IMG/VR virus record: IMGVR_UViG_3300009008_000260
Coordinates: 1-23,400 of that record
Reading direction: 5' to 3' (one strand)
DNA from: a virus
DNA length: 23,400 bases
Position 1 is the stretch's first letter. Every line of letters starts with the position of its first letter. The notes beneath the pieces were generated by a model, which saw only the letters and a list, made by a program, of their open reading frames with translations, did not search any database and was not told where the DNA came from. Shown in pieces: positions 4,018 through 16,369 of this stretch. The position numbers and the translations under genes were made by a program.

Positions 4018-4833
4018 TTAAACGTTAACTAACTGGATACCACGAGTTGCGTCAACAACACCAGCGCCACCAGCCATGTGTGCTACTAAGTCGTAACCCA
4101 TAGCCGCTAAACGAGGCTCAGCATCAATGCGTAAAGTTTGACCAATTGCTAAACGAGCCGCGTCTTTACCAAAGATGAAACCTGAATGTCCACTAGGAAC
4201 TAAAGCTGATTGGAACATTTGCACACCTGCAAAAGTACCTACATAACCGTTACGCAATGCTTCAGTTTGGAAGTCACCACCTGCAAGGTTGCCATCACCG
4301 TAGATTGCTTTCATTAAAGCAGTAGCTTCTGAAGTTGAAAGGATACCGTATAATTGACCCATTTCACCAGCACTTCTAATTTGCTCAACACTATCAAACA
4401 CTGAGTCTGCTGTCATTGGAACTGAATCAGTAGTTGAATCAGTAAAGTCAGTTGCCATTGCAGTTAGTACTACTGTATCAAACTTCTTAGCAACAGCGTT
4501 ACCAAGTACACGACCAAGCTCTTGTGGGTCCAAACCGTGTGCATTTCTAACTACAGAACGAGAACCAATTGGGTTAACTGCAATTGAGTTGTTAGTATCT
4601 GTAATTACTTGTGCTGGAAGGTCTGTGGTTGCCGAATCATCTGTGTATTCAGTTGCATCTACTTCGCCTAGTAATGGAACTTGTGCTGATGCAGAACCTG
4701 CGCCAACATTAATAATTGGTACTAATTGACCAGAAAGAAAAAGACTTTGTTCTTGTGCAGTATACAAAGCCGCTGCCTTTGTAGGTGTCACTAGTGATTC
4801 TAGTGAAAAACCTGATAGATATTCATTTGCCAT
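4018..4833 (-). CDS. Major capsid protein
   Basis: This 271-residue protein lies directly after the scaffold gene and before the connector. It has a compact capsid layout: an N-terminal arm (MANEYLSGFSLESLVTPTKA), strands (ASAQVPLLGEVDA), a long helix with NAHGLDPQELGRVLGNAVAK at about residues 97-116, and a C-terminal domain ending GAGVVDATRGIQLVNV. The HK97-type fold is inferred. The ATG follows AGGAG with a seven-base spacer, consistent with strong translation. The protein carries no obvious long cleaved N-terminal delta domain, which agrees with a separate scaffold gene. Confidence 0.8.
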   Translation of the reverse strand: MANEYLSGFSLESLVTPTKAAALYTAQEQSLFLSGQLVPIINVGAGSASAQVPLLGEVDATEYTDDSATTDLPAQVITDTNNSIAVNPIGSRSVVRNAHGLDPQELGRVLGNAVAKKFDTVVLTAMATDFTDSTTDSVPMTADSVFDSVEQIRSAGEMGQLYGILSTSEATALMKAIYGDGNLAGGDFQTEALRNGYVGTFAGVQMFQSALVPSGHSGFIFGKDAARLAIGQTLRIDAEPRLAAMGYDLVAHMAGGAGVVDATRGIQLVNV

Positions 4834-13042: not shown

Positions 13043-13049
13043 CAATCAC

Positions 13050-13075
13050 AAAAAAACCCCAACTTAATGGGGTTT
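13050..13075 (-). terminator. Rho-independent terminator
   Basis: On the minus strand AAACCCC-ATTAAGTT-GGGGTTT forms a seven-pair stem (13069-13075 with 13054-13060), followed directly by a T run and GTGA. It ends the structured RNA described at 13050-13205. Confidence 0.9.
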
Positions 13076-13205
13076 AGGGTGTAACAGTTGTTTTTATGGA
13101 GTATACGAACAAGCTATAAGAGCAACTGTTACAGTGAGTGCAATATAATAAATTTTTTATATAAGGAAGACCATATGGCTGTATAGTCTGGGGCTATTGC
13201 ACTCA
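13050..13205 (-). ncRNA. Candidate structured RNA with three hairpins and terminator
   Basis: The stretch after the 61-residue gene is not coding and folds into consecutive perfect stems on the minus strand. P1 is TGAGTGCAATA with TATTGCACTCA (11 pairs, 13195-13205 with 13135-13145, named on the plus strand). Inside P1 is AGACTATA-CAGCCA-TATGGTCT (eight pairs with one G-U, 13168-13189). P2 starts just after P1 and is TGTAACAGTTG with CAACTGTTACA (11 pairs, 13080-13090 with 13123-13133) around a 32-base loop. P3 is the terminator. No anticodon arm or tRNA ends are present. It could be an independent small RNA or a 3' UTR-derived one; no clear promoter lies right upstream. Confidence 0.65.
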
Positions 13206-13212
13206 AAGTTAT

Positions 13213-13398
13213 TTATGAAAAGTCTTCTTCGAACTGTTTTTCTTCAATGTAATTAACTAAATCGTTATCAAGTGTTTTTGGAACTTGTATTAGTTCTTTT
13301 GTTTTGTTATTAAAGTAATAGTCATGCCCAGTTACTTGTAAATGTGTTAGTAGTTGTCCTAAGTCGTAAGGGGTAAGTTTTTTAGTACTAAATTTCAT
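13213..13398 (-). CDS. Unknown 61-residue protein
   Basis: The protein reads MKFSTKKLTPYDLGQLLTHL, then a Tyr-rich turn (GHDYYFNNKTKE) and an acidic end (NYIEEKQFEEDFS). I do not recognise it. The start at 13398 has almost no leader: a terminator (13415-13438) lies 17 bases upstream and there is no Shine-Dalgarno sequence. It may be translated from read-through or a leaderless transcript. Its stop lies eight bases before the structured RNA, so that RNA may be its 3' UTR. The mixed helix/strand composition looks like a real small protein rather than a random frame. Confidence 0.5.
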   Translation of the reverse strand: MKFSTKKLTPYDLGQLLTHLQVTGHDYYFNNKTKELIQVPKTLDNDLVNYIEEKQFEEDFS

Positions 13399-13720: not shown

Positions 13721-13748
13721 ATTATAACACAACTAAATCAGCAGTCAA
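13721..13748 (-). promoter_or_regulatory. Sigma70-type promoter for the 76-residue gene
   Basis: The minus strand has TTGACT (13748-13743), 16 bases, then TATAAT (13726-13721). The start would fall near 13714, giving a short leader before the AAGGAG site. Both boxes are near consensus. Confidence 0.85.
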
Positions 13749-13762
13749 CCTTCTTTAGTCAC

Positions 13763-13810
13763 AAAAAATCCCTCTAGGATATTTGAATAGGAAAAGACTC
13801 TAGAGGGATT
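13763..13810 (-). terminator. Rho-independent terminator with an 11-pair stem
   Basis: AATCCCTCTAG (minus strand 13810-13800) pairs perfectly with CTAGAGGGATT (13777-13767) around a 22-base loop. A T run and GTGACT follow on the minus strand. It ends transcription coming from the 96-residue gene and insulates the next promoter. The plus-strand side lacks a T run, so it acts one way. Confidence 0.85.
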
Positions 13811-13906
13811 AGGGTAGGTTTATTTTGCACTTCTGGAAAACCTTAAAAACCAGAACGGAACGAGCCTTATGAAATACCCGTTTGTGCTATATGAAGTCCC
13901 TTTTAA
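13763..13906 (-). ncRNA. Candidate structured 3' UTR or small RNA
   Basis: The 96 bases between the gene stop and the terminator are not coding. They hold TTCTGG with CCAGAA (13850-13855 with 13831-13836) around a 13-base loop, with TTTTT and TTTT runs, before the 11-pair terminator. A TATAAT at 13912-13907, preceded by GATTGTG, overlaps the gene stop and could start a separate RNA of about 140 bases, but its -35 region is poor. It is either a long 3' UTR or a small RNA. Confidence 0.35.
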
Positions 13907-14273: not shown

Positions 14274-15137
14274 TTATCTTTTTTGATTTAACTTGCGTTG
14301 TTCAGTCCATGAGAGTGCTCTTTCGGTATCATGTTTTGGATTTGTATATAAGTCTTGTCCTTTACATCCTCTTGCTTTTTGCCTTTCCGAAAGTGTGCCG
14401 TTTAATATAAAAGAGTAAGTCCAATCCTGAAACATTATTGCACCTTCCCATGATTTTTCTTGTGGGTCCCACCAAACTGCTACTGCTGTTCCAGGCTCGA
14501 TTGATTTCTTTTCGTTATTTGAATTTGCTTTTAATCTGCACTTACCTAAGTACGGCACTGTATCAATCCCTTTGCAGTGGTTAATTATTTCTTTTCTGAA
14601 TTGTAGCACTTCTGCTTTGCCTTGCTCCGGTATGTGCTTGTAGAAATTAGAACGGTCTTTTGTAACAGGTGCAATAAATTCAACATTCTCGCCATCAACT
14701 AAATTAAATCTAATTGTGAACTTGTGTTTTCTAAATCCTTCATCATTAACCCAGAAGTGCATGATTGCTCGTTTGATTTCGTCTGCAAATCCACCGGGTT
14801 CGGTTTCTTGCGCCGCGCTACAACTAACCCTCTCTGTCCGAGAACATAATGCTTTTAAAGACGAAGTCTCACAAGAAGAAGAAGAAGTACAACTTCTGTC
14901 GGTGAGTTGCGAAGCAAATTCATCGACTTTATTTTCTTTATTATCTTTGTTTTCTTTATTATCTGTATTATCTTTATTATAATAATCTACGACACTTTTT
15001 TTATCAGCGGTATTATCTGTATTATCTTTATTATAATAATCTACGACACTTTTATCATCTGGTTTTGTTTGCTGTACTAGTTCTTGCTGTCGTTTTTGTA
15101 TTTGGTTAAAAATATGTTCGGGGTTGTCTATTTTCAT
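14274..15137 (-). CDS. Unknown 287-residue protein, candidate replication protein
   Basis: The N-terminus MKIDNPEHIFNQIQKRQQEL is followed at about residues 28-65 by low-complexity repeats (SVVDYYNKDNTDN twice, then NKENKDNKENK). A Ser/Cys-rich stretch (SCTSSSSCETSSLKALCSRT) comes next. A folded-looking domain covers about residues 115-287 (KRAIMHFWVNDEGFRKHKFT; YLGKCRLKANSNNE; AVAVWWDPQEKSWEGAIMFQ; a basic C-terminus QRKLNQKR). I find no helicase, primase or polymerase motif. It is the largest non-structural gene, divergent from the plus-strand pair, and carries iteron-like DNA repeats. A replication initiator in the style of lambda O is therefore conceivable but unproven. The ATG has AAGG upstream. 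Confidence 0.6.
   Translation of the reverse strand: MKIDNPEHIFNQIQKRQQELVQQTKPDDKSVVDYYNKDNTDNTADKKSVVDYYNKDNTDNKENKDNKENKVDEFASQLTDRSCTSSSSCETSSLKALCSRTERVSCSAAQETEPGGFADEIKRAIMHFWVNDEGFRKHKFTIRFNLVDGENVEFIAPVTKDRSNFYKHIPEQGKAEVLQFRKEIINHCKGIDTVPYLGKCRLKANSNNEKKSIEPGTAVAVWWDPQEKSWEGAIMFQDWTYSFILNGTLSERQKARGCKGQDLYTNPKHDTERALSWTEQRKLNQKR
14957..15053. repeat. Two 43-base direct repeats in the 287-residue gene, possible origin iterons
   Basis: The 43 bases at 14957-14999 recur exactly at 15011-15053, a 54-base (18-codon) period. They are very AT-rich and themselves contain TATTATC/TTTATTAT sub-repeats. The flank 14936-14956 has further TTATCTTTGTTTTC-like sub-repeats. They encode the in-frame VVDYYNKDNTDN repeats. 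The reading of these as an origin is inference. Confidence 0.85.
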
Positions 15138-15226
15138 CTTGTAGCCTTGTTCGTAATTTATAGATATTTATTATATATTATTAAATACACTAAATATTAC
15201 TACATTTATAACCAAAAAGGTAAAGT

Positions 15227-15556
15227 ATGACAAGAGATGAAGCTAAAGCATTAGGATTAACAGAGTATGTTCCAGACAAGCCGTGCAGGCGTGGACACTG
15301 GCACAGAAATACAAAAGGTGGGTACTGTATTCCGTGTTACAAAGAATCAGTTAAAAAATACAATGCAAAACCTGAGGTTAAAAAGTACCACGCTGAAAAA
15401 CAAAAGAAAAGGCGTGCAGAGCAGGGCGATAAGTACAGAGAATATATCAATGCTTATATGCGTGAGTACAACAAAACTGAAAAAGGCAAAGCTTATCGTG
15501 CAGAACTCAAACGAAGAAACAAACAGAAAAAAAATCTTGGAAGCACTAAAGAGTAG
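15227..15556 (+). CDS. Zinc-finger DNA-binding protein, HNH-nuclease-associated N-terminal type
   Basis: This 109-residue protein begins MTRDEAKALGLTEYVPDKPC. Cys20, His24, Cys34 and Cys37 (CRRGH and CIPC) form a likely zinc site. I recall this N-terminal module from phage HNH or endonuclease VII-like proteins ('GKPCRRGH...CxxC'). The rest is a highly basic helix (KQKKRRAEQGDKY, NAYMREYNKTEKGKAYRAEL) fit for nucleic-acid binding. No HNH catalytic residues are present, so cleavage is not claimed. The ATG follows AAAGG with a seven-base spacer. It is the first plus-strand gene in an otherwise minus-strand genome. The next zinc-binding frame starts by overlapping its end in another frame. Confidence 0.7.
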   Translation: MTRDEAKALGLTEYVPDKPCRRGHWHRNTKGGYCIPCYKESVKKYNAKPEVKKYHAEKQKKRRAEQGDKYREYINAYMREYNKTEKGKAYRAELKRRNKQKKNLGSTKE

Positions 15557-15593
15557 TTACGAGTTTAAAAATGGGCATACTGCTAGTCACTCA

Positions 15594-15776
15594 ATGAAGT
15601 ACATGAATATCTATGTACATAATGATGTGTACATTGCTTTAGAGGGAAAGAGCTTTCCCTGCCCACATTGCGATGAAGTTTCGTCAGAAAGACCTTATTT
15701 AACCCATACTTACAACAAGTTCAAGAAACGGTGGCGGGGGAAATGCAACCACTGTAGTAAGAAGTTTACTTATTAA
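15594..15776 (+). CDS. Zinc-ribbon protein, possibly the second half of the upstream gene
   Basis: The clearly coding end of this frame reads MKYMNIYVHNDVYIALEGKS, then FPCPHC, then RWRGKCNHCSKKFTY: two CxxC pairs make a zinc ribbon. From the ATG at 15594 it is 60 residues. The open frame extends upstream in phase and could begin at TTG 15537 or be joined to the preceding gene by a frameshift in an eight-A run at 15527-15534. Neither start has a Shine-Dalgarno sequence, which favours coupling or fusion. It ends 11 bases inside the 3' end of the opposite-strand gene. A DNA or RNA binding role is inferred from the ribbon. Confidence 0.6.
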   Translation: MKYMNIYVHNDVYIALEGKSFPCPHCDEVSSERPYLTHTYNKFKKRWRGKCNHCSKKFTY

Positions 15777-16098
15777 AAGCTTTTAGGTAATGCTTTACAG
15801 CCGGTATAGCAATACACATTACTGCTTCAACATCAATTACAACATCAATTGATACTATATCCTTTTTTTGTTCTTGTATAGCAACATCAAGAATATATTC
15901 TAGATCATCGATATCGTCGTAAAAATTCATTCCTTTTAGTCTTTTAACATCAATTGTTTTTGCATTAGGACTATCTGTTTTATACAAATGTATTTTGTCA
16001 AGGAAGGTTGCTTCAAACTCGGTTTTATTTTCAACTGAGTTTATTATTCTGGACCACTTATTAAATAACTTGTCGTACTCAGTGTTTGACAAATACAT
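15766..16098 (-). CDS. Unknown 110-residue protein
   Basis: The protein MYLSNTEYDKLFNKWSRIIN is helical in its first half. Then come KTIDVKRLKGMNFYDDIDDL, an acidic DIVSIDVVIDVEAVMCIAIP strand and AVKHYLKAFNK. No membrane segment or motif is recognised. It starts with a one-base overlap of the upstream stop (TAATG) and is the last gene of the late direction before the opposite-strand pair. A 12-base palindrome (TAAAAGCTTTTA, 15774-15785) covers the junction of the converging genes. Confidence 0.65.
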   Translation of the reverse strand: MYLSNTEYDKLFNKWSRIINSVENKTEFEATFLDKIHLYKTDSPNAKTIDVKRLKGMNFYDDIDDLEYILDVAIQEQKKDIVSIDVVIDVEAVMCIAIPAVKHYLKAFNK

Positions 16099-16301
16099 TA
16101 TCTTTTTGTTCTTGATCTTGATTTAGGTACAGACATTCCTAAAAATAATCTCATACCTCTATTGAAACTTTTGCTATGCGAGCTAAAATCTCTTCCACCA
16201 CGACGAGCATAATTGTATCCTTTTCTGTGTCCAGCACACGTTGATTTGCAATTAGCACCCCTAAAGGTAAGTGGTTTTGCTGTTTTTCTTATTTTAGCCA
16301 T
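16098..16301 (-). CDS. Small basic Cys/His protein of marine-phage type
   Basis: This 67-residue protein is very basic: MAKIRKTAKPLTFRGANCKS, then TCAGHRKGYNYARRGGRDFS, a SHSKSFNRGMRLFLG segment and a KSRSRTKR tail. The NCKSTCAGHRKGY motif recurs, from memory, in small unnamed proteins of marine phages. Cys and His could bind zinc; the basic tail could bind DNA. It lies after the tail-tip and holin-like genes, so it may be a minor virion protein or a DNA-binding protein. It is coupled to the next gene by a one-base overlap. Confidence 0.65.
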   Translation of the reverse strand: MAKIRKTAKPLTFRGANCKSTCAGHRKGYNYARRGGRDFSSHSKSFNRGMRLFLGMSVPKSRSRTKR

Positions 16302-16369
16302 TGCTCATACTCCCACTTACATATAGATCGTTCAAATTTGATACGGTTTTGTTTTGATTTGATAGCATA

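Follow-up and report, generated by a model that had tools for sequence, protein, structure and literature searches.

To our knowledge, few regulatory RNAs have been described from lytic phages, and a literature search on pelagiphages and noncoding RNA returned only unrelated work and no relevant report. DicF, StxS and AsxR are trans-acting antisense sRNAs of phages and prophages; they are short and noncoding, end in a 3' terminator and carry an antisense segment that can pair with a translation start or with some other regulatory site (PMC12197685). PAK_P3 sRNA1 and sRNA2 and the T4 band C and D RNAs are noncoding RNAs of virulent phages, known from RNA data and of unknown function, and for the PAK_P3 sRNAs 11-nt pairings to phage genes have been predicted (PMC4933390). 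CisR, a host RNA that acts on a phage gene, is one of the bacterial sRNAs derived from 3' UTRs, which lie directly past a stop codon and use the terminator of the gene itself (PMC13250501). The element described here (13050-13205) is a structured stretch at the 3' end of a predicted phage transcript. The leading reading, held tentatively, is that its minus-strand RNA, either as a 3' end or as a processed sRNA, represses a 287-aa and a 67-aa gene of the same phage by base-pairing.

The window, that is the whole stretch of DNA analysed, comprises 23,400 bases and is a single virus record of IMG/VR. Its genes for terminase, portal, scaffold and capsid resemble those of marine phages, and the earlier note's reference to a phage is correct: the window belongs to a tailed phage with relatives among the Pelagibacter phages. 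By TerL its closest named matches are HTVC112P, 111P, 026P and 202P (53-55%) as well as phage DSL-LC06 (51%). Both contig ends (1-1586 and 23178-23400) code on the minus strand for portions of a single tape-measure protein, and the record therefore looks like a nearly complete circular genome of ~24 kb that was opened in this gene; its Pelagibacter relatives are roughly 32 kb. No replication gene is recognisable in the window phage. The one large non-virion region of the window spans 12.6-16.8 kb; it harbours the element and small genes that belong to no known family. Within it, the plus strand carries genes only at 15227-15776, a 109-aa ORF (phrog_1081) and an overlapping frame that ends in a zinc-ribbon-like CPHC...CNHC sequence; these could be two genes or a frameshift. 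Three minus-strand terminators, at 13046, 13411 and 13759, have in common the tail TTTTTTGTGA(CTAA), which is absent elsewhere in the window, and they look like parts of duplicated cassettes. A second noncoding stretch of ~150 nt (13757-13906, minus strand) is preceded by a promoter-like site (13935-13906) and contains a terminator stem of 11 bp with a 22-nt loop (13767-13810). Its fold is weakly better than that of shuffles (z -1.5) and it is possibly another small RNA. DSL-LC06 also has a noncoding stretch, of ~750 nt (572-1328), on the late side of its genome; it contains several short, perfect palindromes, among them GGACAGCTAGCTGTCC and GGCGGATGTCATCCGCC, and is not homologous to the element.

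The element itself had been described in the earlier note as two perfect 11-bp stems that abut each other, one of them enclosing a further hairpin, with a terminator at the end, and all of these parts are present on the minus strand (Table 1). Stems A and B are separated by a single base, 13134. An intrinsic (Rho-independent) terminator is recognised by a G+C-rich stem of at least five pairs followed by a U-tract, and here four of the eight pairs are G-C and TTTT follows. When the upstream ORF is included in the fold, the interior pairs of the stems have probabilities of >0.9 and the end pairs of 0.67-0.9. The absence of a coding frame, also claimed earlier, is borne out by stops and negative codon scores in all six frames. 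The element is not a tRNA either, as the note had said: ARAGORN detects none, and the lack of a cloverleaf rules out both a tRNA and a tmRNA. Rfam 15 searched at the gathering threshold matched no family anywhere in the window, and at E values up to 10 the best sub-threshold scores in the region were at chance level; the element lies outside every described Rfam 15 family and would join the phage small RNAs.

Table 1. Coordinates of the element, its surroundings and the predicted targets of loop B
Feature	Position	Strand	Details
61-aa ORF, directly upstream of the element	13213..13398	-	Stop codon 7 nt before stem A
Best promoter-like site of the region	13721..13748	-	TTGACT-16-TATAAT with TG before the -10; 11/12
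Stem-loop A	13135..13205	-	11-bp stem; encloses GCCCC, an 8-pair hairpin and a 22-nt A/U-rich strand
Stem A arms	13205-13195 / 13145-13135	-	TGAGTGCAATA / TATTGCACTCA; 11 Watson-Crick pairs, 49 nt enclosed
Inner hairpin of A	13168..13189	-	13189-13182 AGACTATA, loop CAGCCA, 13175-13168 TATGGTCT; 8 pairs, one G-U
Stem-loop B	13080..13133	-	11-bp stem, 32-nt loop
Stem B arms	13133-13123 / 13090-13080	-	TGTAACAGTTG / CAACTGTTACA; 11 pairs, loop 32
Loop of B, candidate antisense segment	13091..13122	-	CUCUUAUAGCUUGUUCGUAUACUCCAUAAAAA
Intrinsic terminator	13050..13075	-	8-bp stem and U-tract; arms 13075-13068 AAACCCCA / 13061-13054 TGGGGTTT, loop 6, then TTTT
Predicted target 1, start region of 287-aa ORF (14274-15137)	15136..15156	-	UUACGAACAAGGCUACAAGAU; duplex -19.5, about -18 after target opening
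Predicted target 2, start region of 67-aa ORF (16098-16301)	16286..16317	-	Duplex -22.3, about -13 after target opening

The density of long stems had been judged to be beyond chance, and this judgement is upheld. The minimum free energy of the minus strand is -45.1 kcal/mol compared to -23.5 +/- 3.2 for dinucleotide shuffles (z -6.8), none of 200 shuffles being as good. Stems A and B are two of just four perfect inverted repeats in the window that reach 10 bp with a loop of no more than 60 nt. Repeats of 11 bp or more number 0.63 per shuffled window, and none of 30 shuffles has an adjacent pair; an adjacent pair is likewise absent among the 55 repeats (at least 10 bp with at least 3 G/C) in ~1 Mb of related or fetched viral DNA. 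In a sliding 150-nt scan of 17 related loci the plus strand of the element reaches a z of -4.9, the best value elsewhere being -4.2, and the minus strand scores -3.1 on the same scale. It is very unlikely that stems A and B arose by chance, and the structured element at the 3' end of the predicted phage transcript is real and unusually strong. The fold, the absent coding signal and the minus-strand U-tract support the earlier proposal of a noncoding structured RNA with its own terminator, which would be read from the minus strand.

Such a transcript would start near 13748, run through the 77-aa and 61-aa ORFs into the element and stop at the terminator. The 61-aa ORF has a positive codon score, the sole one among the minus frames. 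The promoter-like site at 13721..13748 is likely to be the start of this transcript, a prediction from a consensus match of a kind that is no more frequent in the region than chance would give. Between the start of the 61-aa ORF and the element no sigma-70-like promoter exceeds chance, and the element is therefore more simply seen as the 3' UTR of the small-gene transcript, perhaps processed to a small RNA. The structured 3' end would either be left in place or be cut to a stable RNA of ~150 nt, and stems A and B together with the terminator hairpin would protect the 3' end; both the production and the stability of this RNA are putative.

The proposed function comes from the unpaired segments of A and B, which were compared to all predicted start regions in a test that was chosen after the loop had been seen. 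For the 22-nt strand of A there was no signal (85 of 200 shuffles were as good). Loop B, which would be kept exposed by stem B as an antisense segment, has complementarity to the start regions of both the 287-aa and the 67-aa ORF. The former duplex includes ten contiguous pairs (UACGAACAAG/CUUGUUCGUA) immediately 5' of the AUG, and the latter, at -22.3 kcal/mol, covers positions -16 to +15. Two of the five best sites for loop B on the 23.4-kb minus strand cover start codons. When the cost of opening the target is included, the 287-aa start ranks first on the whole minus strand (-18.0) and the 67-aa start second (-13.2), a site just past the 16098 start ranks fourth, and the plus-strand gene start at 15227 is second among the plus-strand sites; opening loop B itself costs 3.1 kcal/mol. 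On energies alone, loop B is matched on the best, second-best and top-three measures by 0.5-1.6% of dinucleotide shuffles, by 0-0.4% of GC-matched 32-mers from the minus strand and by 0.7-2.1% of 32-mers from the plus strand. A start-site energy equal to its best was reached by one of the 120 shuffled loops and by none of the 130 GC-matched 32-mers, and none of these 250 controls (0/120 and 0/130 from the same strand) had its top two sites both at starts, a measure that was framed post hoc. By base-pairing around the ribosome-binding site and start codon of these two phage genes at least (starts at 15137 and 16301), loop B would lower the translation of both ORFs.

Several observations count against repression by loop B. 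The match emerged from a post hoc search with two loops, and a chance match of loop B is not as unlikely as chance stems. Co-folding of the whole element with its targets gains only -6.1 kcal/mol for the 287-aa and -0.5 kcal/mol for the 67-aa ORF, the gain being small because stem B has to be opened in a nested co-fold. The 67-aa ORF has a start region that is structured in its own right and takes 9 kcal/mol to open, the start region of its homologue in locus L009 is not conserved, and a promoter is not evident just upstream of the element. It is doubtful, although conceivable, that this one RNA with one antisense loop controls a cluster of non-virion genes (the 287-aa and 67-aa ORFs and perhaps the starts at 16098 and 15227) in a compact phage that has no recognisable repressor or replication gene.

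The antisense-loop RNA is closely trailed by a passive 3' UTR, which is nearly as plausible and in which the hairpins have no target and block 3' exonucleases, act as processing sites or back up the terminator of the 77-aa and 61-aa ORFs. This requires no additional assumption, since the element begins 7 nt past a stop codon and finishes in a terminator, and other small genes in the region also end in terminators with the TTTTTTGTGA tail, one of them with the 11-bp stem and 22-nt loop at 13767-13810. It leaves unexplained, however, why the two best accessible sites for loop B on the strand are start regions and why stem A encloses an inner hairpin.

A function at the level of the DNA is unlikely. 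The paired inverted repeats would in this case be a protein-binding, replication or recombination site, either as double-stranded DNA or as extruded cruciforms. The perfect arms of both stems are symmetric as DNA and also fold as DNA (z -6.7), and the lack of a recognisable replication gene makes an unusual origin conceivable. The A arm (TGAGTGCAATA) moreover resembles a palindrome, GAGTGTAATCATTGCGCTC, upstream of an XRE-family regulator gene of HTVC112P, where the same stretch (4264-4350) contains a further half-site, TTGCACTC, that also resembles it. The idea of an operator half-site was dropped, as the half-site is missing from the corresponding regions of the relatives HTVC111P, 026P and 202P. 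The arms of the two stems are 32 and 49 nt apart, which is far for an operator, and the A arm has no second copy in the window within one mismatch. An attachment site was likewise rejected, there being no integrase among the scanned proteins; a 96-aa ORF scores 14.7 bits with Pfam Phage_integrase, below the cut-off of 27.1.

It is highly improbable that the functional product is the plus-strand RNA, which would be antisense to the 61-aa ORF region. The plus strand does fold more stably (-55.7, z -7.4) and extends stem B to 20 pairs, three of them G-U, and folding energy alone can for this reason not assign the strand. For the inner hairpin of A the minus strand is the better match, having a G-U pair where the plus strand has a C-A mismatch; the four G-U positions are not decisive, because any transition in an inverted repeat gives a G-U pair on one strand or the other. 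No U-tract terminator follows on the plus strand and its promoter-like sites are at chance level, and three features favour the minus strand: it carries the U-tract, the flanking genes run in its direction, and on it the element follows a stop codon. Least probable of all are functionless hairpins, due to chance or left by gene-cassette recombination with an inverted copy of a leader in loop B: the plus strand of the loop looks like a leader (GGAGTATACGAACAAGCTATAAG), for which reason such a remnant would match start regions equally well, and the shared tail of the three regional terminators suggests cassette duplication, but two perfect 11-bp stems would decay fast without selection and the fold is far beyond chance.

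Relatives of the element were sought in viral contigs, genome contigs, phages and plasmids, and none were found in these collections. The exact-arm pattern of stem A had no match in IMG/VR; that of stem B hit six contigs, all of them chance or coding repeats, five sharing one coding repeat, and these were discarded. A loop-anchored pattern that allowed any stem sequence gave 17 contigs, about the chance expectation, and none of those put to a covariance search scored. A 17-mer of loop B occurs in two contigs, the match being confined to the 17-mer itself, and a 19-mer of A had no match in genome contigs. The single-sequence covariance model, run against 86 sources (0.81 Mb) and 16 records, returned only the element itself and chance matches. 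The neighbouring 134-, 287- and 61-aa proteins have no relatives in IMG/VR or phages, and a search of genome contigs with TerL gave no match.

If the leading reading of an antisense loop is true, the locus provides a concrete and testable RNA-target pair inside a phage genome of ~24 kb, and a long-looped perfect stem beside a terminator becomes a pattern to be sought in related phages. Like CisR and other sRNAs derived from 3' UTRs, the element lies directly past a stop codon (that of the 61-aa ORF, 7 nt away) and uses the gene's own terminator; unlike CisR, a host RNA directed at a phage gene, it is phage-encoded and its processing is putative (PMC13250501). With DicF, StxS and AsxR it shares a short, noncoding, phage-borne and structured form, a 3' terminator and an accessible segment complementary to translation starts, which in the element exceeds chance in a post hoc test. 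It differs from these three in having no similarity to any Rfam family, in that its candidate targets are the phage's own genes, and in being known here from sequence alone (PMC12197685). Like the PAK_P3 and T4 RNAs it is a candidate noncoding RNA of a phage, and whereas those are known from RNA data, the element has been read from its DNA letters only and combines a tighter structure with a start-site antisense loop (PMC4933390).
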